A DNA stretch of 49,058 bases from Spirochaetes bacterium ADurb.Bin133 (lineage in GTDB: Bacteria > Spirochaetota > GWE2-31-10 > MWDO01), in the NCBI GenBank assembly GCA_002070605.1, contig MWDO01000020.1:1-49058 (forward strand), in the 5' to 3' direction. A model generated the notes under the pieces. It saw nothing but the letters and a program-made list of their open reading frames with translations. It did no database searches and had not been told where the DNA came from. How positions within the stretch are numbered: position 1 is the stretch's first letter; every line of letters begins with the position of its first letter. The translations under genes and the position numbers were made by a program. Shown here one piece after another: positions 1,495-48,690 of this stretch.

Positions 1495-1584
1495 AACTTT
1501 ATACCCCTTATTAATAATTTTTTTAAAATTATATTCTATTTTAAATTTAAAATTTATGCAAGAAAAATTGTTTGATAAAAAGCT

Positions 1585-2286
1585 CCCGTCGGTTTTTTGG
1601 GCAAAAGAAAAATCTACGCATATGTGTCATTTTTTTTTAATCAGTAAAATATTTGTCATTTATTAAAAATTATCCAAATTTTTGTAAAGAGTTTTCTACT
1701 TTTAGTTGTTATATATAAAAGAAAAAGGAGAAAATTTTATGAGAAACAAAAAACATCTATTTCACTTTATAGTGTCAGAATCTATGAATACCAATGTCAT
1801 AGATTTTTTACTAAAAGAGTTTAAAATTAATACGTTTAGCAAACTGTTTGAGACTATGTTTCGCCTCATTGACAAAAAAATCTCAAAAATGAAGAGAGTA
1901 ATCGGAAATCATCGCTCCGAATACGCCGTTATAGATAATACCAACGATAAAAGGCTGGATAAATACCTCAGAATCAGCGAAGCAGACTATCTTCAAATAA
2001 AAAGATGGCATTCTTTGTATAACGAATTCGGTATGGCTTCGACGGTTCGAGATATTATACTGTTTTTTTATAACGGCGCTATGAAATACGGACTAGAAGG
2101 ATTTCTTGAGCTTATTGGTAAGAAGTTGAAGATCGATAAATTAAAAAACGACTTTTTGGATAGAATGACACAACTGTTAAATATAACCGCTCGAAAACAG
2201 CTATTATACGCGTTTGTAATTGAAAATTTTCCCGAATACATCCGCTCTACCTAAAATTAATTCTTATCTCCCCAAAAAACCGGCGG
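1585..2286 (+). mobile_element. TIR-bounded element carrying a tandem-RHH gene (copy 1)
   Basis: The left end CCCGTCGGTTTTTTGGG (1585-1601) and right end CCCCAAAAAACCGGCGG (2270-2286) are inverted copies of each other. Inside the left end is one CATATG site (1619-1624) with GTGTCAT on its right arm. An AT-rich leader of about 100 bases follows, almost the same as in the two other gene-bearing copies, then one gene (1739-2254) that fills the rest. No transposase is present and I see no convincing target duplication. This is the cleanest gene-bearing copy in the window. Confidence 0.65.
1739..2254 (+). CDS. Tandem ribbon-helix-helix-like protein, paralogue 1
   Basis: A 171-residue protein of a three-member family in this window, about 85% identical to the copy at 37695. 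I do not recognise a named family. Residues 73-117 (strand around KYLRIS, helix EADYLQIKRWHSLYNEFG, turn, helix STVRDIILFFYNG) have the strand-helix-helix layout of ribbon-helix-helix DNA-binding proteins. Residues 5-47 (strand LFHFIVS, helix from ESMN to FKI, helix NTFSKLFETMFRLIDKK) show the same order, so the protein may be a fused RHH pair. The C-terminal 50 residues are helical and basic. The start at 1739 rather than 1706 is set by AAAAAGGAG eight bases upstream. The gene lies inside inverted end repeats, so its own repeats are a candidate target. Function unknown; the fold is inferred from sequence pattern. Confidence 0.8.
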   Translation: MRNKKHLFHFIVSESMNTNVIDFLLKEFKINTFSKLFETMFRLIDKKISKMKRVIGNHRSEYAVIDNTNDKRLDKYLRISEADYLQIKRWHSLYNEFGMASTVRDIILFFYNGAMKYGLEGFLELIGKKLKIDKLKNDFLDRMTQLLNITARKQLLYAFVIENFPEYIRST

Positions 2287-2324
2287 AATACCGGTAAATA
2301 AATTTACATAGTTTAAAAAAGATA

Positions 2325-5995: not shown

Positions 5996-6982
5996 ATGAA
6001 AAAATCTGACGTAGAATATATATTGCTGACCGGGGCGGCGGGTTTTATCGGAGCCAAAACCGCCGAACGTCTGCTTGAACTCGGCTATAAGGTCGTCGGC
6101 GTAGATAATATGAACGACTATTACGACGTCTCGATAAAAGAGCGGCGTCTAAAAACGCTAATCGGCGACGATAATTTTGTATTTCACAAAGCCGACATTG
6201 AAGATTACCAATATATGAAGTCGCTTTTTGAAGAAAACAAATTCTCCGCAGTAATTAATCTCGCCGCCCGAGCGGGAGTAAGATACAGCGAGGAGAATCC
6301 TCATGTCTACATGTCGACAAACGCGCAAGGGACTCTCAATTTGTTGGAGTTGATGAGGAAGTTTAACGTCCGAAAATTCGTATTGGCTTCGACGTCGTCG
6401 CTATACGCCGGACAACAAATTCCTTTCGTAGAAACCTTGCCTGTGAATACTCCGATATCGCAATACGCCGCGACAAAAAAAGCCGCCGAGGTTACGACGT
6501 ATACTTATCATTATCTATACGGAATCGACGCGACTATTTGCAGATACTTTACCGTTTACGGTCCGGCGGGGAGACCCGATATGAGCCCCTATCGATTTGT
6601 AAAGTGGGTTTTAGAAGGAACGCCGATTACTCTCTTTGGCGACGGGACGCAGAGTAGAGATTTTACCTATGTGGACGATATAGCGATAGGAACCGTCGCC
6701 GCGTTAAAAAACGTCGGTTACGAAATAGTAAATCTCGGCGGCGGACAAAAGCCGATAACTCTAAACGAGATGATAAAACTAATCGAGGAGTATTCCGGGG
6801 CGGAGGCTAAGATAAATTATCAGCCTGTCCAAAAGACCGATATGGTTGAAACTATGGCGGATATCAAAAAAGCCAAAACCTTACTAAACTGGTCGCCCAT
6901 TGTATCTTTTGAAGAGGGAATCAAGAAAACGGTCGAATGGTATCTGGCAAATAGAGAGTGGCTCAAAAACGTACCGGTATAA
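5996..6982 (+). CDS. NAD-dependent sugar epimerase, UDP-glucuronate 4-epimerase-like
   Basis: Extended short-chain dehydrogenase of 328 residues acting on a nucleotide sugar. The NAD-binding motif TGAAGFIG is at 12-19. The catalytic pair is Tyr157 and Lys161 in QYAATKKAAE, with the Ser/Thr-rich STSSLY at 132-137 before it. The sequence VDNMNDYYDVSIKE at 36-49 is typical of UDP-glucuronate 4-epimerases, which supply UDP-galacturonate for surface glycans. GDGTQSRDFTYVDD is the usual substrate-side motif. It starts eight bases after the preceding stop with no clear ribosome site, suggesting translational coupling. Substrate is not proven; UDP-glucose 4-epimerase is the alternative. Confidence 0.88.
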   Translation: MKKSDVEYILLTGAAGFIGAKTAERLLELGYKVVGVDNMNDYYDVSIKERRLKTLIGDDNFVFHKADIEDYQYMKSLFEENKFSAVINLAARAGVRYSEENPHVYMSTNAQGTLNLLELMRKFNVRKFVLASTSSLYAGQQIPFVETLPVNTPISQYAATKKAAEVTTYTYHYLYGIDATICRYFTVYGPAGRPDMSPYRFVKWVLEGTPITLFGDGTQSRDFTYVDDIAIGTVAALKNVGYEIVNLGGGQKPITLNEMIKLIEEYSGAEAKINYQPVQKTDMVETMADIKKAKTLLNWSPIVSFEEGIKKTVEWYLANREWLKNVPV

Positions 6983-7003
6983 GCAACCATTTTTTCTACG
7001 CGC

Positions 7004-7710
7004 CTCGCCGGTTTTTTGGGGCGGGGAAAATTGACACATATGATGTTAAGGATAAAAATCGACGCATATGTGTCAATTTTTTTTTAATTAGTAAATTAAT
7101 TGTTATTTATTAAAAATTTATGCAAATTTTTGTACAACGTTTTCTACTTTTAGTTGTTATATATATAAAAGAAAAAGGAGAAAACTTTATGAAAAACAAA
7201 AAACATTTATTTCATTTTATAGTGTCTGAATCTATGAATAATAACGTTATAGATTTTCTACTGAAAGAGTTCAAAATTAATACATTCAGTAAACTGTTTG
7301 AAACTATGTTTCGCCTTGTTAATAAAAAAATACCAAAAATGAAGAGGATAATCGGGAATCATTGTTCAGAATACGCCGTTATAGACAATACCGACGATAA
7401 AAGGCTGGATAAATACCTCAGAATCAGCGAAACGGATTATCTTCAAATAAAAAGATGGCATTCCTTGTATAACGAATTCGGTATGGCTTCGACGGTTCGA
7501 GATATTATCTTGTTTTTCTATAACGGCGTCGCGCAATACGGGTTGGAAGGATTTCTTGAGATTGTTAGTAAGAAATTGAAGATTGATAAATTGAAAAACG
7601 ACTTTTTGGGTAAAATGACACAACTGTTAAATGTTACCAATCGAAAACAGCTATTATACTCGCTCTTAATCGAAAATTATCCCAAATACGTCTATTCTAC
7701 GTAAAAATAT
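7004..7710 (+). mobile_element. Element carrying a tandem-RHH gene, right end lost (copy 2)
   Basis: The left end CTCGCCGGTTTTTTGGGG (7004-7021) is followed by GCGGGGAAAATTGACACATATG and a second CATATG at 7065-7070, then the AT-rich leader (about 7078-7188) and gene 7189-7704. The other gene-bearing copies end with ACCGGCGG shortly after the gene; here the homology stops after GTAAAAA and continues into an AT-rich stretch ending TTGACCGG. I read this as a damaged right end, so the right boundary is approximate. Confidence 0.55.
7189..7704 (+). CDS. Tandem ribbon-helix-helix-like protein, paralogue 2
   Basis: 171 residues, intact, clearly the same family as 1739-2254 and 37695-38210. The two strand-helix-helix units fall at the same positions (5-47 and 73-117), and the middle block LRISETDYLQIKRWHSLYNE is almost unchanged. 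Differences concentrate in the linker at 48-62 and the last 25 residues. The start at 7189 follows AAAAAGGAG with eight bases spacing; an in-frame ATG at 7120 lies inside the conserved non-coding leader and is rejected. It stands alone between a sugar epimerase and a fucose synthase gene. Function unknown; DNA binding is inferred. Confidence 0.8.
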   Translation: MKNKKHLFHFIVSESMNNNVIDFLLKEFKINTFSKLFETMFRLVNKKIPKMKRIIGNHCSEYAVIDNTDDKRLDKYLRISETDYLQIKRWHSLYNEFGMASTVRDIILFFYNGVAQYGLEGFLEIVSKKLKIDKLKNDFLGKMTQLLNVTNRKQLLYSLLIENYPKYVYST

Positions 7711-7734
7711 TTTATTTTTTTGACCGGTTATAAC

Positions 7735-10177: not shown

Positions 10178-13100
10178 ATGTTTGTTTTCAAGAATTTTGC
10201 GAGGCTATTAGTTTTAATACTCTTAACGGCGGCTCAATTTTCTTTATACGCTCAGAAAGACGTTACCGCCGACGTCAAGTCTTTTAAGAAAGAAGCCGAA
10301 GCGGAGAAGAAAAAAGTTGCCGAGATGGAGTTAAAAAAACGAAATAAGGCAAAGAGCGAAGAGGCGATTAAAGCGAAAGCTAAAAAGGATAAGATAAAAA
10401 AACTTCAGGACGACTTAAAAAAGATTAACGCAGAGATAAAAAAGCAAAATCTTGATATTAAAAGCGCCAATAAGAATATAGCTAAAATTAATGTAGATAT
10501 GATTAATCAGAATAAAAAAGAAGAACTTGATAAACTCTCTGAAAAAAAAGATCGCGAAGCAAAGAAGATTATAACGTGCAATGAAAGAATTAAAGATTTG
10601 CGGATTGATGCAAAAAGGATTAATACCGAACTTGAAAGCGTTAAAGACGTCTATGAGATAGCCGAAGGGACTCTTAATTGGAGTAAAGATTATAATATTT
10701 CAAATAAAAGCAAATACGTTAACGGCAAATGGAGCGTTCACGTTAAGGCGCGGGACGATAGGGATAATTACAGTCCTGAAGTCGGCGTCAATATTATTAT
10801 CGACCCTAAGTCTGACATACCGCTAGTAAACGTTATTAACCCGTTGCCTAACGCCAAAGTTCTGGGAAATCTAAAAATAGTCGGAACGGCGTACGACGAC
10901 GACGCGGTCGATCGGGTTGAAATTATAGTCGATAACGAAAAAGAGAAAAGAGCCGCCGAGGGAACGGATTTCTGGTCGTATGATCTTGATACTTCGATGA
11001 TGAAAGACGGGGAGCATTTTTTTAGGGTAAAGGTTTACGATATAAACGGTATTCTTAGTAAAGAGGTACAGGTGCCGTTTCAACTCAACAGGAGGACGCC
11101 TTTTATAGAGATTAACACTATTAAATCGGGATCCGTCGTGTCCGGGAAAATGAACGTCGGGGGTATAGCGAGCGACGATAACGGGATTGTTAGCGTAGAA
11201 TACTCCGTAGACGACAGAGAAACTTTTACAAGAATTGGGATGATAAAGAACTTAGCTAAGAATCGGGTAAAAGTTCAATGGAGCATCGGAATTGATTCGG
11301 GCCTTCTTGCCGACGGAACTCAGACCGTTTGGATAAGGGCCGCCGATAAAGCCGGCTCTGTCGGTTATTCTCCTTTAACCGTTATCGTCGATCATAAAAA
11401 GCCGGAGATATGGTTTGATTTTCCAAGGGATAGAGATAAGGTAGACGGTAAGTTTACGGCGTTTGGATACGCCTACGATAACGTAGACGTAAAAGGGGTT
11501 GAAATAACGATAACCGGAGCCGGAATGGACGGCAAGCCTATGCCGGTTACGCTTTTGCCGGGTAATCCGCTTTGGAGTTATCCCGTAGATTTGTCAAAAG
11601 GGAAATCGGGATTTTATAAGTTAACCGCCGCGGTAACTGACGTATCCGGTAATAAAACGGTTAGCAGCGTAACGGTGTCTTTAGACGAAGATCTCGATAA
11701 ACCCAAATTAATTTTGAAGAGTATTGCAAACGACGATAGAATATCGAATTCTTTGCCTCTTTTTGGAGACGTATCGGACGACGACGGGATGAAAGAGGTA
11801 ATAGTTACAATAACGAAAGATCAAGCAAAAACGCCGGTATTCCAGAAGAATATAGCCGCGAAGTATAGCTTTTCATTCGACGTAGACGCGTCGGATACCT
11901 CTAAATTTACCGACGGGAAATATAAAGTCGAGCTTGTTCCGGTAGATATTAATAACACAAAAGGGGATTTGGTATCGGTAGACTTCTGGATAGACAGAAG
12001 CTATCCTGAATTTGATAACGAGTTTATCAATAAGAATATCGCCGGCAAATATTTTAAGAAAGTAATTGAAGTCGCAAATATTCAGGTTAAAAAGAGCGGC
12101 GCTCTTAAATCGGTTAAATATAGCATAAGCGATTTGGCGAACGATCAGATTTTAGTAAAAAGTAAGGAACTTAAATTTACCCCTTCTAAAAAGAATGGAT
12201 ATTACGACGTCGAGGCGATTAAAGAGGATTTTACAAAAGACGCAAAGTTTGCCGATAAATTAGTCGCTATCAATCTAACCGCGACGGACTTTGTTAATCG
12301 TTCTTCAAACTTGTCGATTCCTGTAATAGTAGATATGAAGGAACCGGAAATAAAATCGCCGGTTATAGACTCTAAAAAAGGGATGATGAAAGACGAGAGT
12401 ATTGTAGTTAGCGACAACGTATTGCTAAAAACGGTGAAAATTGATATTTCTTCATCGGATAAGACCTTTAAGCCGATAACCGGAGCTTCCTTGGCCGTCG
12501 GCGAGGATAAAGAGTATGTTCTTAAAGTAAAAACCGCCGACGGCGGTATGGCCGAATATTCTTTTACTATAACGGCTACGGACGTCTCGGGTTTTGAGAC
12601 GAAATTGTCGAATTTTAAAGTATCTTTTAAAGAAACCAAATCGGCTTCGTTAAAGTTAACGGTAAGCGTAAAAAAGAAAGATACGTTAATAACTTACTCC
12701 AATCCTAAATTACTAATAGCGCGGGAGACAGTCGGTTATGATGAAATTAATAGATCTATTTACGGATTAATTCCGGAGGGGTATTCCAATTTAAATCTTT
12801 CAGGCGGGTCTTTAAATGTGAGCGGAACTTTGCTCAACTCGGATTTTGGAATTTATAATTTTGATATTGGAGGCGACGCTAATAGAGCCAGTTTAGCGCC
12901 GGGTATCAATAATATCTCTATAAACGGTACGAGGGATGGAGGCTCAAGCTCTTTGGCAAGTCTTAATATTGTGAACGATAACTCCGATCCGAAGGGTTTA
13001 ACTATATGGCCCCCTTCATATATGTCTTTTAACGAGAATATTTCTATATTCGGAGTTGCAAGCGACGATACCGGCGAAGTAAAGGTTCAGTATAGCGTAA

Positions 13101-16100
13101 ATTCGGAAGACGCTTACAACGACGTATCCCTTGAATCCATTTCCAATTTGAAGAATTATAAAGTTCCGGAACTCGATCCTTTAAAGAGAACTCAGAGTAT
13201 AAGATTAAGCGATTACGTCGCAGATAATAACTTGCCGATCGATCAGTTAAACGATAAATTATTTAAGATTGATTTGCCTATGCTCGATCTCAATATGAAA
13301 GAGGGGGAGCATACCGTTCGTATAAAAATTACCGATAACGCAGGTAAAACTACCATAAAAAAGGTTGTAACTATATTTGATAAAACTCCTCCAAGTCTTA
13401 GAGTGTGGAGTCAAGCCCCCAAAAAGGTAGAAGTTAACGATTTTAAAAATAATATTCTAAAAAATATAAAAAACGCAAAGGATAAAGAGTTTTTTGAGAA
13501 ATTTTATAAAATTAATAGTTCGAATACCTTTTATATTCTTGAAGAGAGGTTGACCGACGACCAAAGATTTAGAATTTTGGACATACTAGGCAAAACGGGA
13601 TATAATTGCGTAGAGACGGCAAACGGTCAGATAACTTTAAGAGGAGATTCGTCGGACAATAATAGTCTTACAAACGTAGTCGTTATGCATAACGGCGTGG
13701 AGAATATAGCCAAAGGGAGGTATCTATGGGAGGCTCTTTACGACCTAAACGAACTGGAAGGGGTAAATTTTGATTCCGTCGAATCTATTCCTCATACAAT
13801 AGATATTTTTGCCATCGATAAGGCGGGCAATAAAAAATTTGCCTCAAAAGACGTATTAATTGACACTTCGACAGACATTCCTGAAATATTTATTAACAGT
13901 CCCGCCGTCGACGGACAGAGGTTTACCGACTTTGTAGAAATTGGCGGTATAGCGTTAGACGACGACGGAATCGATTACGTGCAATTTCGTATTGATTTTG
14001 GCGATCCGGGTAGCGTCTTAGATACTGTGAAAAAAGAGGAAGTGAAATGGGAAAGGATAGATATGACCAAGGGTAATCCTAATTGGTTTAAAAAAATTCC
14101 TAAAGATTCTATATCGCCCGGAAAGCATGTTCTCGAAGCGCAGGCGGTCGATATGTATGGAGCGCTAAGTAAAATCAAATCTGTTACCTTTCACATTGAT
14201 AATGAAAATCCTGTTATAAGAATATTAAGTCCAATCAACGGAGAGTATTTGAGGGGCGAAACCGTTATAAACGGAAGAGCGTCGGATCCTAACGATATTG
14301 ATATAGTAGAGATAAGCACAAATTACGGTTGGACTTTTTCCAGAGCGGAAGGTACGACAAGTTGGAAATATTACTTTGATTTCAGATCCGTACCCGACGG
14401 ACCGTTAAGAACTCTTATTAAGGTTAGAGATCAGGCTGGCAGCGAATCTTTAACATTTGCGTTATATAACATAGACAACACCCCTCCGGAGATAGATATT
14501 CTTATGCCTAAAGACGGTATGACTTTAAATAACAAATACAGAATAGTAGGACGAGCTAAGGATAATATAAAGATAGATTCGGTCAAGCTTTATGTCGACG
14601 GTAACGTTGGAAGTAAAAACGTTATATATGGAACTGAAATCGAGGGAGAGGACGAAGGATATTTTGAAACAGAAGGGGATAATAAGGCTTGGTATTTTGA
14701 TCTGGATACTAGATATTTGACGCCTAAAGATAAATACCAACTGATTGCCAGAGTTAGAGACCTTGCCGGAAACGTTTCAGAGAAGTCTTTAAACTTTACG
14801 GTCGATCCCGCTTCAGATCTTCCCAAATTAGTTCTGGATCAGCCCCAGCCCGGACAACATTTGACGGGACAAACGATAGATTTTTTTGGCACGGCTTGGG
14901 ACGACGACGGCATAGACAAGGTTTTAGTCAAAATTGACGACGGCGATTTTGTGGAAGCGAGAGGATCGGAATTGTGGAATTTTTCGTTATCTACCGTTGG
15001 ATTGACTCCGGGAGAACACAAAATATTTGTCGTCGCTTATGAGAAAACCACGGCTGAGAATGAAAAACAAAAAACAATATCTTTGTCCAGGCAGTTCTAT
15101 TTTGACGAGTTTGGACCTGTAATTGAGGTGAAAAGCCATATAAACGGAGCTCCTATGGAGCACAGACCGTGGCTTATGGGTAAATCTTATTTCTACGACG
15201 CTAACGTCGATATGAAATTGAAAAAACAGATACAATACGCTAAATTTAAAGCGTTGAAAAAGAAATTTAGAAGGGACGAAGAAAAAGTAAAAAAACTTGA
15301 GGAAACTATCGATCAGATTGAAGTTAAACCTTACGAAGTAGCCGCGCTGAAAAATAAATATATGGAGAAAAACAAAGTCGAATCAATATATCTGAGTTTG
15401 GATAACGGTAAAACGTTTACAAAACATATAGGATTTCCTTCAGATTGGCAAATCCGCGTTCAAACTCAATATCTGATAGACGGACAACATGTGCTTCAAA
15501 TAAAGTCTGTTACAAAGAGCGGCTTGGAGTCTTTGAGGTATTTTAGAGTGGCTATTAATAGAAAAGCTCCCGAAGTTATTATCGATAGCCCCGTAGACAG
15601 CGATAGGATTAACGATAAAATAATGGTAAGAGGATCCGCTAACGACGACGGCGAGGTTGACGAGGTAAAAATAATGTTGCGAAGATTTGACAAAAATCTG
15701 GGTAAAGTGCCTCAATTCGTACAAGGAATATATCTTTGGGCGCAAATATTCGGCGGACCTTACGTCTCAGGAGGATTTGGGTTAAGTTTCTTCGACGACG
15801 TCGTTAGAGTAGAAGGAATGTTTAGCTGGATACCTACTAAGGAAAACATGGAGGATATGGGAATCAGTCAATACGATCAGTCTAGATTCAATCCTCAAAC
15901 CGGTTGGCCTAATTACAGATACGAACCGAGATTTTACGGCTTCTGTACCGGCGGTAAACTTCTTGCAAAAATTATCGATATACCGTTTGAGTTCTTTTTC
16001 GGCGAAGACGCCAAAAACTTTTCTATAAGCGTAGAGATTGGTTGCGGATTTTATTGGTTTAGCGGGTATGGCGGGGGATCAACCGAAAAATATAATTTAG

Positions 16101-16321
16101 TTACAGATAAAAATTCCATAGAGTACAAAGATTCGGCTTATAAAAAAGGAAAAGTTATCGCCGGATTTATGTATCAGATCGATTTGTTCAAGGTTGAAAG
16201 ATGGAGTTTCTTGAGAAAGTTCGCTATATACTTTGAGAACATTTTCTACTTTATAGCTTCCGAAGTAGAAGGAGGATTGACGCCTCAAATAGGATTTGGA
16301 ATACGAAATGCGTTTTTCTAA
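10178..16321 (+). CDS. Giant secreted Ig-repeat protein with coiled coil
   Basis: A 2047-residue envelope protein. Residues 1-25 form a signal peptide ending FSLYA before QKD. Residues 26-155 are a Lys/Glu-rich coiled coil. From about 160 to 1860 there are roughly fifteen bacterial Ig-like domains of 90-110 residues, recognised by the recurring pattern 'inspxxg..v.G.A.DDDGIdxVe...D', a W..d turn, a '.DG.h' turn and a closing 'D.aGN' strand; good examples begin near 220, 320, 1245, 1340, 1430 and 1535. One late domain (about 1640-1790) holds a second charged helical insert. The last 200 residues are rich in Gly and aromatics (GGPYVSGGFGLSFF) and end in Phe, like an outer-membrane beta-barrel. 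AGGAGG gives a strong ribosome site, and a strong terminator follows. It is probably a surface or periplasm-spanning structural protein; ligand unknown. Confidence 0.9.
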   Translation: MFVFKNFARLLVLILLTAAQFSLYAQKDVTADVKSFKKEAEAEKKKVAEMELKKRNKAKSEEAIKAKAKKDKIKKLQDDLKKINAEIKKQNLDIKSANKNIAKINVDMINQNKKEELDKLSEKKDREAKKIITCNERIKDLRIDAKRINTELESVKDVYEIAEGTLNWSKDYNISNKSKYVNGKWSVHVKARDDRDNYSPEVGVNIIIDPKSDIPLVNVINPLPNAKVLGNLKIVGTAYDDDAVDRVEIIVDNEKEKRAAEGTDFWSYDLDTSMMKDGEHFFRVKVYDINGILSKEVQVPFQLNRRTPFIEINTIKSGSVVSGKMNVGGIASDDNGIVSVEYSVDDRETFTRIGMIKNLAKNRVKVQWSIGIDSGLLADGTQTVWIRAADKAGSVGYSPLTVIVDHKKPEIWFDFPRDRDKVDGKFTAFGYAYDNVDVKGVEITITGAGMDGKPMPVTLLPGNPLWSYPVDLSKGKSGFYKLTAAVTDVSGNKTVSSVTVSLDEDLDKPKLILKSIANDDRISNSLPLFGDVSDDDGMKEVIVTITKDQAKTPVFQKNIAAKYSFSFDVDASDTSKFTDGKYKVELVPVDINNTKGDLVSVDFWIDRSYPEFDNEFINKNIAGKYFKKVIEVANIQVKKSGALKSVKYSISDLANDQILVKSKELKFTPSKKNGYYDVEAIKEDFTKDAKFADKLVAINLTATDFVNRSSNLSIPVIVDMKEPEIKSPVIDSKKGMMKDESIVVSDNVLLKTVKIDISSSDKTFKPITGASLAVGEDKEYVLKVKTADGGMAEYSFTITATDVSGFETKLSNFKVSFKETKSASLKLTVSVKKKDTLITYSNPKLLIARETVGYDEINRSIYGLIPEGYSNLNLSGGSLNVSGTLLNSDFGIYNFDIGGDANRASLAPGINNISINGTRDGGSSSLASLNIVNDNSDPKGLTIWPPSYMSFNENISIFGVASDDTGEVKVQYSVNSEDAYNDVSLESISNLKNYKVPELDPLKRTQSIRLSDYVADNNLPIDQLNDKLFKIDLPMLDLNMKEGEHTVRIKITDNAGKTTIKKVVTIFDKTPPSLRVWSQAPKKVEVNDFKNNILKNIKNAKDKEFFEKFYKINSSNTFYILEERLTDDQRFRILDILGKTGYNCVETANGQITLRGDSSDNNSLTNVVVMHNGVENIAKGRYLWEALYDLNELEGVNFDSVESIPHTIDIFAIDKAGNKKFASKDVLIDTSTDIPEIFINSPAVDGQRFTDFVEIGGIALDDDGIDYVQFRIDFGDPGSVLDTVKKEEVKWERIDMTKGNPNWFKKIPKDSISPGKHVLEAQAVDMYGALSKIKSVTFHIDNENPVIRILSPINGEYLRGETVINGRASDPNDIDIVEISTNYGWTFSRAEGTTSWKYYFDFRSVPDGPLRTLIKVRDQAGSESLTFALYNIDNTPPEIDILMPKDGMTLNNKYRIVGRAKDNIKIDSVKLYVDGNVGSKNVIYGTEIEGEDEGYFETEGDNKAWYFDLDTRYLTPKDKYQLIARVRDLAGNVSEKSLNFTVDPASDLPKLVLDQPQPGQHLTGQTIDFFGTAWDDDGIDKVLVKIDDGDFVEARGSELWNFSLSTVGLTPGEHKIFVVAYEKTTAENEKQKTISLSRQFYFDEFGPVIEVKSHINGAPMEHRPWLMGKSYFYDANVDMKLKKQIQYAKFKALKKKFRRDEEKVKKLEETIDQIEVKPYEVAALKNKYMEKNKVESIYLSLDNGKTFTKHIGFPSDWQIRVQTQYLIDGQHVLQIKSVTKSGLESLRYFRVAINRKAPEVIIDSPVDSDRINDKIMVRGSANDDGEVDEVKIMLRRFDKNLGKVPQFVQGIYLWAQIFGGPYVSGGFGLSFFDDVVRVEGMFSWIPTKENMEDMGISQYDQSRFNPQTGWPNYRYEPRFYGFCTGGKLLAKIIDIPFEFFFGEDAKNFSISVEIGCGFYWFSGYGGGSTEKYNLVTDKNSIEYKDSAYKKGKVIAGFMYQIDLFKVERWSFLRKFAIYFENIFYFIASEVEGGLTPQIGFGIRNAFF

Positions 16322-16379: not shown

Positions 16380-16762
16380 TATGACGGGCGTAGGCGAACA
16401 ACGCATATGCATGCGTTAGGGCGTCGGGTTCTTAAAATGACACATATGTGTCAAAAAAAATGGACGCGTAATCTTCGATTTTTTTTGATTATGAGAATAT
16501 AAAAATATTCAAAACGGGAATTCCCGCTTTTATTAGGAAGCGCGGCGGCGGTTATACAGCTCCATATGTGTCATTTTTTATCGCAGGGCAGTTTGACACA
16601 TATGCGTCGAATTTCTATCGAGGAGCGGCGCGGCGTATAGCTCCATATGTGTCGATTTATTTTCGGTATCATATGTGTCATTTAATTTCAACGCGATAAT
16701 TGCCGCCGCGCTTTAGGCGCATATGCGTCCATTTTTCTCCCACTCCCAAAAAACCGCCGGGG
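16380..16762. repeat. CATATG palindrome mosaic array (7 sites)
   Basis: This gene-free stretch between two convergent genes holds seven CATATG cores at 16404, 16443, 16563, 16599, 16644, 16670 and 16720. Their arms are mostly GTGTC or GCGTC on the right, or GACAC on the left. The site at 16438-16453 is the perfect palindrome TGACACATATGTGTCA. The right end CCCAAAAAACCGCCGGGG (16745-16762) matches the element family; the left end is unclear. Other modules are CGGGAATTCCCG (about 16514-16525) and ATCGAGGAGCGGCG (16617-16630), both with relatives in the array at 48375. I see no coding sequence here. Confidence 0.75.
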
Positions 16763-16782
16763 TACGCGAGATGCCATAAATT

Positions 16783-18177
16783 CTAGTATGCGTATTTTTT
16801 TACTTGTTTGCCAAAAGCCGTTAGGAAAACAATTTTTAAGTCAAAGAAAAGCGACCAATTTTCGATATATTCGATATCGTAACGAACCCGGATTCCTATA
16901 TCGGAATCCCCCCGCCAGCCGTTTACTTGCGCCCAACCGGTTAGTCCGGGTTTGACCCAATGCCGCACCAGATATTTATCATATTTCTGATAAAACTCCT
17001 CGGTATGCGCCAACATATGAGGTCTGGGACCCACGATCGACATTTCCCCTTTAAGGATATTAATGATTTGAGGAAGTTCGTCGAGGTTATATTTGCGTAA
17101 AAAATCGCCGAATTTGGTCTTTCTCGGATCGTCTTTTGTCGCTTGCTTCGTATCCGCTTCGTCGTTTATAAGCATCGTCCTGAATTTGATAATCTCAAAA
17201 TCTTTTTGCTTAAAACCGGTTCTTTTTTGTTTAAAGAAAACGGGTCCTTTTGAAGTAAGTTTTATCCCTATAGTAATAATCAAGAATACGGGGGATAAAA
17301 CTATAAGCGCGGCTCCGCTCAGTATTATATCGCAAAGCCGTTTTACAAAACGGTTATACATATTTTCAAGCGGAATATTTCTGATGCCTATGAGAGGATA
17401 ACCTTTTATCTGACGTATAGAAGGATTTGCCGTTATTATTTTGAAATAGTCCGGTATCAATTCGGCTTTTACTCCGTATTTCTCGCACAAATTAGTTATA
17501 TTAACAATCTTCTGTTCGGCGTACATAGGCAAAGCAAGCACTACGTTGTCGAGAGCCATAGTTTTTAAAATTGTCTCAATCTTGTCGGTTTTACCGAGAA
17601 GCAGTCCTTTAATTGCGTCGGTGTATTCCGGATCGTCCGTATTTAAAAACTCCTCGTTGTCGTCGAGAAATCCTACTATACGTATCCCCAATTCGTTAGA
17701 GGAGACTACTTTTCTGTAAAAATTAAGACCAACTTGTCCCGCTCCGACTATCAGATAGTTTCGGAAATTAAATCCTTTTTTACGAAGTATCGTAAGCGCT
17801 AATTTAATAAACATTCTTTCGATAAAAACGAAAGATAATACCAGCGTAATATAGCAGAGAACAAATTTGTTTTCAAACTTAAAAATATCAAATAGTATTA
17901 AAAGATAAAAGGAAGAAATCATATATACAAGAAGTCTGAAAATATTTTTTAAAATAACGCGAAAAGGTTTAAATCTATATGTGTGAGAAAATTCGGCTCT
18001 CTCCAAAGCGATAAAAAAAACAAATACCAGAATTAAGATAATAATAGTTTCTTTAAAGCTAAAAGTAAAAATATTACGCGTTACGATAAAATTTGAAATA
18101 TAAAACGAGGCAAGAAGAACTAAAAGGTCTACAAGAGACAATAAACCTAAAATAAAGCTGCTGTTTTGCTTTAACAT
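16783..18177 (-). CDS. Undecaprenyl-phosphate sugar phosphotransferase (WcaJ/WbaP-like)
   Basis: 464-residue inner-membrane enzyme that starts glycan assembly by moving a hexose-1-phosphate onto undecaprenyl phosphate. The first 120 residues carry four hydrophobic segments. A Rossmann-like middle domain starts at NYLIVGAGQVGLNFY (about 140-154). The C-terminal 190 residues are the catalytic bacterial sugar transferase domain, with a further membrane helix (IILSGAALIVLSPVFLI) and the motifs GPVFFKQKRTG, FEIIKFRTM, LRKYNLDELPQ, MSIVGPRP and KPGLTGWAQVNG. The start has a GGGAG ribosome site. With the epimerase, fucose synthase and the glycosyltransferases at 32-35 kb it supports surface polysaccharide synthesis. 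Which sugar it uses cannot be told. Confidence 0.93.
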   Translation of the reverse strand: MLKQNSSFILGLLSLVDLLVLLASFYISNFIVTRNIFTFSFKETIIILILVFVFFIALERAEFSHTYRFKPFRVILKNIFRLLVYMISSFYLLILFDIFKFENKFVLCYITLVLSFVFIERMFIKLALTILRKKGFNFRNYLIVGAGQVGLNFYRKVVSSNELGIRIVGFLDDNEEFLNTDDPEYTDAIKGLLLGKTDKIETILKTMALDNVVLALPMYAEQKIVNITNLCEKYGVKAELIPDYFKIITANPSIRQIKGYPLIGIRNIPLENMYNRFVKRLCDIILSGAALIVLSPVFLIITIGIKLTSKGPVFFKQKRTGFKQKDFEIIKFRTMLINDEADTKQATKDDPRKTKFGDFLRKYNLDELPQIINILKGEMSIVGPRPHMLAHTEEFYQKYDKYLVRHWVKPGLTGWAQVNGWRGDSDIGIRVRYDIEYIENWSLFFDLKIVFLTAFGKQVKKYAY

Positions 18178-18249
18178 ATACTCCCTAACGCGATAAAATT
18201 TTAATCAATCAAAATAAACGTCCATAAATTACCGATTAAAAACATTTGT

Positions 18250-18320
18250 TTCATATGTGTCAATTTTATCTTTAATTTCATATGCGTCAATTTCTCCGCT
18301 CCAAAAAACCGACGGGCGCG
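18250..18320. repeat. Partial CATATG element between two reverse genes
   Basis: Two CATATG sites (18252-18257 with GTGTCAATTT, 18279-18284 with GCGTCAATTT) lead into the right end CCAAAAAACCGACGGGCGCG (18301-18320). No matching left end is seen in the 72 bases before it. It sits in the 181-base gap between murB and the sugar phosphotransferase gene and would be transcribed if murB reads through. Confidence 0.6.
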
Positions 18321-37447: not shown

Positions 37448-37469
37448 GAAAAGAAACGATTCTTTAAGA

Positions 37470-38220
37470 CCCTTCGGTTTTTGGGGGTGGAGAAATTCGA
37501 CGCATATGCGTTGTCATGTTTTATCTTAATTTTTTGACACATATGATGTTAAGAAGAAAATTGACACATATGGGCAAATATTTTTAATTAGCAAAATATT
37601 TGTCATTTTCTAAAAATTTATGCAAATTTTTGTATAACGTTTTCTACTTTTAGTTGTTATATATATATATACAAAGGAAAAAGGAGAAAATTTTATGAAA
37701 AACAAAAAACATTTATTCCATTTTATAGTATCAGAATCTATGAATACCAATGTCATAGATTTTTTACTAAAAGAATTTAAAATTAATACGTTTAGCAAAC
37801 TGTTTGAAACGATGTTTCGCCTTATTGACAAAAAAGTCCCAAAAATGAAGAGAATAATTGGGAATTGCCGCTCCGAATACGCCGTTATAGACAATACAGA
37901 CGATAAAAGGCTGGATAAATACCTTAGAATCAGCGAAGCTGACTATCTTCAAATAAAAAGATGGCATTCTTTGTATAACGAATTCGGTATGGCTTCGACG
38001 GTTCGCGATATTATACTGTTTTTTTATAACGGCGTTATGAAATATGGGTTGGAAGGATTTCTTGAGATCGTTGGTAAGGAATTAAGGATCAATAAATTAA
38101 AAAACGACTTTTTGGATAAAATGACACAACTGTTAAATATCGCCGCTCAAAAACAGCTACTACACGCCCTCGTAATCGAAAATTATCCCAAATACGTCTA
38201 CTATACGTAAAAACCGGCGG
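37470..38220 (+). mobile_element. TIR-bounded element carrying a tandem-RHH gene (copy 3)
   Basis: Left end CCCTTCGGTTTTTGGGG (from 37470) and right end AAAAACCGGCGG (38209-38220) are inverted. The right end overlaps the stop codon of the gene. Three CATATG sites lie inside the left part (37503, 37540, 37567), the last two joined by GATGTTAAGAAGAAAATTG, a module also found at 7040-7064 and, related, at 41951-41985. The AT-rich leader of the gene follows (about 37588-37694). The element fills the gap between gyrB and pepA. Confidence 0.62.
37695..38210 (+). CDS. Tandem ribbon-helix-helix-like protein, paralogue 3
   Basis: 171 residues, intact. Around 24 differences from the copy at 1739, mostly conservative, which suggests the protein is kept under selection. 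It has the same two strand-helix-helix units (5-47, 73-117) and the same AAAAAGGAG ribosome site. The linker residues near 48-60 (VPKMKRIIGNCRS) and the C-terminal 20 residues vary most. The stop codon lies within the right end repeat of its element, so gene and element boundaries are shared. Function unknown. Confidence 0.8.
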   Translation: MKNKKHLFHFIVSESMNTNVIDFLLKEFKINTFSKLFETMFRLIDKKVPKMKRIIGNCRSEYAVIDNTDDKRLDKYLRISEADYLQIKRWHSLYNEFGMASTVRDIILFFYNGVMKYGLEGFLEIVGKELRINKLKNDFLDKMTQLLNIAAQKQLLHALVIENYPKYVYYT

Positions 38221-38246
38221 AGTTAAAAACTTCCATATATCAAGAA

Positions 38247-41814: not shown

Positions 41815-41887
41815 GAGTTATTGTTAAAACGCATAGAATAATTTGATTCTTATCAAGAAATAAAGTATAATCTTAACGATCGAAGCG

Positions 41888-42052
41888 CCCGTCGGTTTTT
41901 TTTTTGGGGCGGGGAAATTGACACATATGAAGCATAGAATTCTTGGGGAAATTAACGCATACGACGTTAAGAATAAAAATTGACACATATGGAGCATTTT
42001 TATTGACGCGGGAATATTAGCGCATATGGGCGTTTCCAAAAAAACCGACGGG
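41888..42052. mobile_element. MITE-like element, both ends present, no gene (165 bp)
   Basis: Left end CCCGTCGG with ten T and GGGG (41888-41909) and right end CCAAAAAAACCGACGGG (42036-42052) form inverted termini. Three CATATG sites (41924, 41986, 42023) lie between them. The middle contains GACGTTAAGAATAAAAATTGACACATATG-like sequence, which recurs in the leaders of the gene-bearing copies at 7004 and 37470, so this looks like a shortened derivative of those. It lies 28 bases before the ATG of the DUF4097 lipoprotein gene, in a position to affect it. Confidence 0.7.
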
Positions 42053-42080
42053 AGCATAATCAAATATAAAAGGACTTTAT

Positions 42081-44500: not shown

Positions 44501-44509
44501 CGCTAAAAA

Positions 44510-44783
44510 GTTTTTTGGGGAATAAAAAATATTTGTTCCATATGCGTCATTTTTTTTATGCGACAATTGTCGCGCGTTATCGACGCGACGCATATGTGTC
44601 ATTTTCTTCCTTAAAGCCATATGCGTCGATTTTTGTCGGGGAGCGGCCGCGGCGGCTATGTAGCATATGTGTCAATTTCTATCGAGGAACGCAGCGCTGC
44701 ATATGTGTCAATTTTAAGAGTCGATCCAACCCGCCGCATATACGTCCAATTTATTTCCTCGCCCAAAAAATATACGACGCGCC
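44510..44783. repeat. CATATG palindrome mosaic array (5 sites) before trpB
   Basis: A left end-like GTTTTTTGGGG (44510-44520) and right end-like GCCCAAAAAATATACGACG (from 44761) bound five CATATG cores (44539, 44591, 44618, 44664, 44700), plus a worn CATATA near 44737. The palindrome GCGACAATTGTCGC lies at about 44561-44574. The spacers share ATCGAGGA and CGGGGAGCGG-like blocks with the arrays at 16380 and 48375. Open frames across it are not genes: they follow the repeats. It fills most of the 358-base gap. Confidence 0.72.
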
Positions 44784-48374: not shown

Positions 48375-48690
48375 TTATCCCATATGCGTCAATTTGCTCA
48401 TCGAGGAGCGGCGGGGCGTATATGTATATCATATGTGTCAATTTATTCATCGCGGAATATTGCGTTGCATATGTGTCAAAATTTCTACGACAATTGTCGC
48501 GCGCTATCGACCCGCCGCGCCCCTATAAAAATGTGAATTCCCGTTTTGAATATACTAAAATACTAAACACAGTTCATGCCGCGACTTTATCGGAGCTTGC
48601 GACGCTAAGAATAAAACGCCCATATGTGTCAATTTTATCTTTAGCGCCATATGTGTCATTTTTCTTTTCCCCAAAAAAACGATAGGGATA
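48375..48690. repeat. CATATG palindrome mosaic array (5 sites) at the right end
   Basis: Five CATATG cores (48381, 48430, 48468, 48621, 48648) lie in 316 bases, ending in CCCCAAAAAAACGATAGGG (48669-48687). It shares three modules with other arrays: ATCGAGGAGCGGCG (also at 16617), GACAATTGTCGCGCG (also at 44563), and GAATTCCCGTTTTGAATAT, which occurs inverted at 16500-16525. The longest core-free part (48474-48620) holds the last two. Short frames crossing it are repeat-derived and not genes. Confidence 0.72.

Follow-up and report, generated by a model that had tools for sequence, protein, structure and literature searches.

Correia elements are bacterial MITEs with an internal site for IHF (reviewed in PMC10969869). 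The repeats described here resemble Correia-type MITEs in being short, in carrying no transposase gene, in having terminal inverted repeats (TIRs) and target duplications, and in occurring in hundreds of intergenic copies; like the Correia elements with their IHF site, they also hold an internal site for a DNA-binding protein, which in our case is presumed. They differ in that the duplications are 9 bp long, each element has one to six copies of the site, and the TIR matched no named family. In addition, the gene of the protein presumed to bind the site is part of the long form, with more than 50 intact copies.

In the REP/RAYT system, each member of a protein family has a cognate palindrome, which flanks its gene and is dispersed genome-wide (PMC2817692). 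Palindrome and protein coevolve, and copy number follows the presence of the gene; RAYTs are IS200/IS605-like tyrosine transposases, usually encoded by one or a few genes per genome, and REPs have a GTAG head (PMC2817692). Here too, the genes of two subfamilies (alpha and beta) have a cognate palindrome upstream, which is also dispersed through the genome. Unlike a RAYT, however, our protein matches no transposase model and looks like a ribbon-helix-helix (RHH) protein, its gene is present in more than 50 copies, and the elements are bounded by TIRs.

With the autoregulated RHH proteins (Arc, CopG, ParR/omega, antitoxins) it shares its small size, a strand-helix-helix pattern and (pseudo)palindromic sites that occur in arrays, and the location of the site fits autoregulation. 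It departs from them in having two RHH-like units per chain plus a C-terminal part, in scoring below all curated cut-offs, in that the element encodes neither a partner toxin nor a partition ATPase, and in the dispersal of its site about a thousand times.

In a limited literature search, we found no MITE-like element described that has, in its long form and in so many copies, the gene of the regulator presumed to bind its site, nor any regulator family of this kind in which each subfamily has a palindrome to itself. A protein-DNA recognition code could be read directly from such a natural series of paralogues, each with its own palindrome. Similarly, a transposable element multiplying regulator and operator together would be an extreme case, and it makes testable how genomes put up with, or make use of, a binding site that is present a thousand times. 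The more than 50 intact, selected copies of a regulator gene in a 3-Mb genome need explaining.

The window (the whole stretch of DNA analysed, 49,058 nucleotides) is contig 20 of the fragmented 2.98-Mb assembly of Spirochaetes bacterium ADurb.Bin133, which consists of 103 contigs. Its features are collected in Table 1. From the comparisons below we propose, with a probability of about three in four, that an autoregulated DNA-binding family is present in which the site and gene of one member were captured and multiplied by MITE-like elements.

Table 1. Site-bearing elements, arrays and RHH-like gene copies of the window (G002 is a congeneric genome)
Feature	Position	Strand	Remarks
Long gene-bearing element, both TIRs, one site (1619)	1581..2291	+	
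RHH-like gene copy, 171 aa	1739..2254	+	
Gene-bearing element, two sites (7037, 7065)	7000..7720	+	Right TIR not clear, end approximate
RHH-like gene copy, 171 aa	7189..7704	+	
Intergenic array, 7 CATATG sites, right TIR CCCAAAAAACCGCCGGGGTAC at end	16404..16765	none	G002 synteny breaks here
Two-armed site TGACACATATGTGTCA	16438..16453	none	Exact palindrome
Beta-subfamily leader palindrome CGGGAATTCCCG inside array	16515..16526	none	Intact copy
Short element, two sites	18229..18318	none	10-bp near-duplicate flanks CGTCCATAAA / CGTTCATAAA; absent in G002
Gene-bearing element, three sites (37503, 37540, 37567) upstream of gene	37467..38223	+	Ends approximate; flanks on different contigs in G002
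RHH-like gene copy P0003, 171 aa	37695..38210	+	Query of all searches
Short element, both TIRs, three sites	41885..42055	none	9-bp target duplication ACGATCGAA / ATAATCAAA, diverged; absent in G002
Array, five CATATG sites, all same direction	44509..44782	none	G002 synteny break
Array, five CATATG sites, right-TIR-like end	48381..48690	none	Half-degenerate beta palindrome near 48535

Sites in the Window and in the Genome

The initial annotation had reported a perfect 16-bp palindrome, and both the exact sequence and the perfect self-complementarity of this 16-mer were borne out. It had also counted 28 CATATG in intergenic elements and noticed none in genes. The window holds 29, where dinucleotide shuffles predict 5.1 (sd 2.4) and none of 100 shuffles reached 29 or more. 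The intergenic count of 28 stands; one further CATATG had escaped notice at 17014-17019, within a sugar-transferase gene (16783-18177), and it has no GACRC/GYGTC arm.

A genome motif scan relative to genes gave the same picture. In an 849-kb sample, with genes called by a simple ORF-based scorer, CATATG is not equally common in genes, its intergenic density being 40 times the genic one; for GACACATATG the factor is 114, and for the control palindromes GTATAC, GATATC and CAATTG only 0.4-2.6. Over the whole 2.98 Mb, GACACATATG occurs 573 + 477 = 1050 times, and the reversed-pattern control not once.

Such strong intergenic enrichment would suit a conventional regulator with a large regulon, in which many host genes would be controlled through operators supplied by the elements, and several elements do end just 5' of promoter-like sequences. 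The orientation of the surrounding genes argues otherwise. Sites have a density per kb of 5.8 in convergent, 3.4 in tandem and 4.5 in divergent intergenic regions of the 849-kb sample, and 31% of the convergent regions vs 20% of the tandem ones hold sites. As sites are no less frequent in convergent regions than in the others, most sites are probably not operators of neighbouring genes, and we rejected such operators as a general explanation. Element positions also differ between congeners, and we regard a large regulon of this kind as quite improbable.

Architecture of the Site

Both arms are present in 71 of the 384 sites of the 849-kb sample that have at least one arm (18%). The oriented consensus, AAATTGAC(A/G)CATATGnGnC, has one strong and one weak side; being one-armed, it marks the site as asymmetric and the perfect palindrome as its minority form. 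The palindrome had been put forward as the core of the repeat family, and in its two-armed form it is this only for that minority. Among the sites of the same sample, the site is kept where the spacers vary.

Neighbouring sites show spacing peaks near 26-27, 36-39 and 45-51 bp, but the spacings are partly copies of one another, and the periodicity is thus not independent evidence. The sample contains 145 clusters of armed sites, with 1 to 9 sites each, which scales to about 510 clusters in the genome. As a separate observation, the congener has a tandem array (G002:C6 95-192, L090) in which the site recurs every 22 bp, five times. This spacing is close to two helical turns and unlike the three found here.

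ParR or omega proteins coat plasmid centromeres, and a nucleoid or segregation system could be imagined along similar lines, with RHH-like proteins coating the roughly one thousand dispersed sites and organising the chromosome. The high copy number of the site over the sampled contigs is what one would look for in such a system, as are the arrays of up to nine sites and the spacing peaks. At the loci compared, however, the positions are not conserved between congeners; moreover, two genomes of the same family do without the system, and the element includes no partner ATPase. We give this idea very little credence.

The Mobile Elements

Most site clusters sit in short TIR-bounded mobile elements, and it is because these elements carry the site that its number is so high. 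This changes how the repeated site is to be read: the initial annotation had taken a two-fold symmetric site of this frequency as what a dimeric regulator would read, whereas the number is due to mobile elements, and most sites are one-armed and probably not operators of their neighbours.

The element ends are GYRYCCGTCRGTTTTTTGGGG and its complement, arranged as terminal inverted repeats. A strict TIR scan of the 849-kb sample found 36 elements with both ends, and in the same sample a TIR-like end lies at most 130 bp from 98 of the 145 site clusters, about one third of the clusters having no such end nearby. When the flanks of the paired elements are compared five bases outside the CCGTC motif, a 9-bp target duplication appears (mean 4.19 of 9 matches vs 2.75 in shuffled flanks, z 6.2); perfect duplications include AACTATAAA and TTGTACTTT. 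The two short elements of Table 1 have empty sites in G002, where the orthologous places hold one copy of the sequence that here flanks the insertion on both sides. No transposase is found inside the elements, the short forms being geneless and the long forms carrying only the RHH-like gene. Structured-RNA or terminator repeats were also considered and rejected, as the window gave no match in Rfam and 70-800 bp separate the TIRs.

The long element, of about 700-820 bp, consists of the 5' TIR, one to four sites, a conserved leader, the 171-codon gene and the 3' TIR. The latter follows directly after the stop codon, and in most copies viewed the element ends about 40 bp or less from it. The copies viewed contain no second gene, and thus no toxin gene of a type II toxin-antitoxin system. 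The short elements look like internal deletions, in which the left part of the leader has been fused to the right end (e.g., C2:99434).

A transposase from elsewhere would presumably move the elements. Searches for two transposase families gave none with these TIRs: DDE_Tnp_1 was absent, and Transposase_mut was represented by two fragments. These (G000:C3:99831-99959, L256; G000:C36:17665-17832, L257; G000 is the present genome) are mutator-type, IS256-like, and no TIR of the element family lies near either. Mutator-type (IS256-like) transposases make 8-9-bp target duplications.

It is worth asking whether the protein could itself belong to the mobility machinery, with internal sites that help to build or control the transposition complex and are required in cis, and with the transposase encoded elsewhere. 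Every one of the 36 paired elements holds at least one CATATG (one to six), and the shortest, at 73-110 bp, are essentially TIR, site and TIR; likewise, the gene is the sole one in the long element and stays intact. A selective sweep of one ancestral element would, however, also leave the site in every derivative, and the paralogues discussed below weigh further against this account.

In a comparison with the fragmented G002 genome, synteny breaks at 6972/7727, 16377/16775, 37461/38209 and 44508/44783, as if the elements or arrays at these four places promote rearrangement.

Pairing of Leaders and Subfamilies

The initial annotation had named the RHH-like paralogues as candidates to bind the site. 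Protein and site do occur together: there are 83 protein matches and 1050 sites here and 12 and 106 in the congener, and the family's other two genomes have neither close relatives of the protein nor sites.

Divergent alpha paralogues, 34-44% identical to P0003, are found in both species outside TIR elements. All 12 of these non-element alpha leaders have TTGACACATATG upstream of the start (10 as an exact GACRCATATG, 2 with one change), and all the alpha leader sites read towards the gene. In the sister (beta) subfamily, of 184-191 aa, AAACGGGAATTCCCGTTT occupies the same place in the leaders of 11 of 13 members, again in both species. The alpha site is present in 12/12 alpha vs 1/13 beta leaders (Fisher p 2.7e-6), and the beta palindrome in 11/13 beta vs 0/12 alpha leaders (Fisher p 2.0e-5). 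When near-identical or orthologous members are collapsed, p is ~1e-4 for the alpha site and ~3e-4 for the beta palindrome; a set of 13 alpha genes, including one inside a TIR element, gave the same p. The leaders of two smaller subfamilies contain GCGCATATGCGC and TTAGCGCTAA. The beta palindrome is itself dispersed, with 85 copies here, 32 in G002 and 0-1 in the seven other genomes of our nine-genome sample of the order.

This covariation of leaders is the strongest evidence for the family proteins as probable readers of these palindromes, and it lends the proposed role of the RHH-like paralogues strong, if indirect, support. In addition, since TIR-less paralogues outside the elements keep both site and gene, the pairing is older than the element. 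The same point lowers the standing of the protein as a mobility factor, which we consider unlikely.

One could also see the elements as purely selfish MITEs, with site and gene as mere passengers, CATATG common simply by repetition, and no protein binding it. The TIRs, target duplications and empty sites do speak of transposon-like spread, and convergent intergenic regions are as dense in sites as any others. Passengers, on the other hand, would hardly be expected to keep their leaders conserved in divergent TIR-less paralogues of two species, to swap the palindrome in the sister subfamily, to retain the site despite differing spacers, or to have a gene under purifying selection. We would assign this explanation a very low probability.

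A TTTTGTAAA...TTGTTATATATAA-like promoter region is common to many leaders, also between subfamilies whose palindromes differ; a loose pattern finds it in 27 of 60 (e.g., at 37600-37690 and in loci L119-L191). This region may mark a particular sigma factor or common ancestry.

The Protein

By eye, a strand-helix-helix pattern can be seen in two stretches of the protein. Against a profile of Arc, Mnt, CopG, NikR and AmrZ, the N-terminal unit scored P 1.8e-4 in strand-helix-helix register, and the C-terminal unit only P 0.02 against the RHH profile. The two units resemble each other (P 2.4e-5), which indicates an internal duplication. If both are RHH domains, they could work in tandem as a pseudo-dimer, which would go well with a one-armed, pseudo-palindromic site.

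No curated cut-off was reached in Pfam or NCBIfam, and the protein therefore matches no curated RHH family in either. RHH_1 was found only sub-threshold and for distant relatives (best E 0.004). Other weak matches of the N-terminal half are mainly of RHH type (NikA-like, HicB-like antitoxin, DUF6290), and weak PHROG matches include "transcriptional regulator" and "Arc-like repressor." An AlphaFold model of three near-identical window sequences was too poor to use, with a mean pLDDT of 47 and no predicted strands, and a PDB sequence search with the family profiles gave no meaningful match. A RAYT-type transposase was rejected, as there is no Y1_Tnp or other transposase match in Pfam and no HUH among the invariant residues.

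The Gene Copies

At least 54 of the 83 matches to the 171-aa protein in the genome are full length. The partial ones are mostly at contig ends (e.g., C9:3-167, C21:48554-48904, C58:1-312 and C81:1-360 of G000), and few are broken internally. Since many contigs end within gene copies, the assembly is limited by the repeat, and there may be more copies than were counted.

Among 51 copies, selected for length, the median nucleotide identity is 89%, with dN 0.057, dS 0.46 and dN/dS 0.12; changes found in a single copy have a dN/dS of 0.31 and common changes one of 0.11. Linkage between variable positions drops to its floor (1/n) within 10-30 bp. With low dN/dS and short-range linkage, the copies behave like members of one pool that recombines and is subject to purifying selection. 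Gene conversion would account for the mosaic copies, although part of the mosaic pattern may stem from short-read assembly. For a 3-Mb genome, a regulator gene with more than 50 copies that are intact, selected and apparently recombining is unusual.

Decaying transposon genes were rejected as an explanation in view of the intact frames and dN/dS. An origin from phage or plasmid was likewise rejected, there being no relative in IMG/VR or in phage and plasmid collections. Planctomycetota matches of the contig search were treated as chance, as they are absent among the family-profile matches.

A Proposed Course of Events

Under the reading that we prefer, namely an autoregulated family with one member spread by MITE-like elements, each subfamily would bind a palindrome of its own, situated about 95-190 bp 5' of the gene, and would thereby control itself. 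Weighing against this reading are the scores of the protein below every curated cut-off, the P of 0.02 for its C-terminal unit, the poor AlphaFold model, the transposase searches that gave no enzyme tied to the TIRs, and the third of site clusters with no TIR-like end nearby. That the protein binds the site, we infer from the comparisons of leaders; from the position and conservation of the site it would act as a repressor of its own gene. In the lineage of this genome, one gene with its site would have become enclosed by TIRs that some transposase recognises. The resulting non-autonomous element and its gene-less deletion derivatives would then have multiplied to roughly 500 clusters of sites and over 50 intact copies of the gene.

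About a thousand sites would now compete for the pool of protein, a titration to which the large number of autoregulated gene copies may be the counterpart, multiplied sites and genes presumably titrating one another. Titration by competing sites would explain why the gene copies stay intact, although we offer this as a proposal. In a variant, regulator and operator would form a self-propagating system: the protein would be needed for the spread of its own site, as a mobility factor unlike known transposase partners, selection would keep a recombining population of copies functional within the genome, and the other subfamilies, with other palindromes, would be parallel lineages. We consider this variant unlikely.

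Other Features

A third intergenic palindrome, CGACAATTGTCG, occurs 22 times in intergenic and 3 times in genic DNA of the 849-kb sample, an enrichment of about 33-fold. It is placed between CATATG sites, and in the window it is seen in the arrays around 44560-44590 and 48475-48490. No cognate family gene could be pinned to it; leader L189 has a TGTCAATTG stretch. Elsewhere in the window, positions 10178-16321 encode a 2047-aa protein that consists largely of bacterial Ig-like domains (Big_7, Big_13) and is probably surface-located or secreted.
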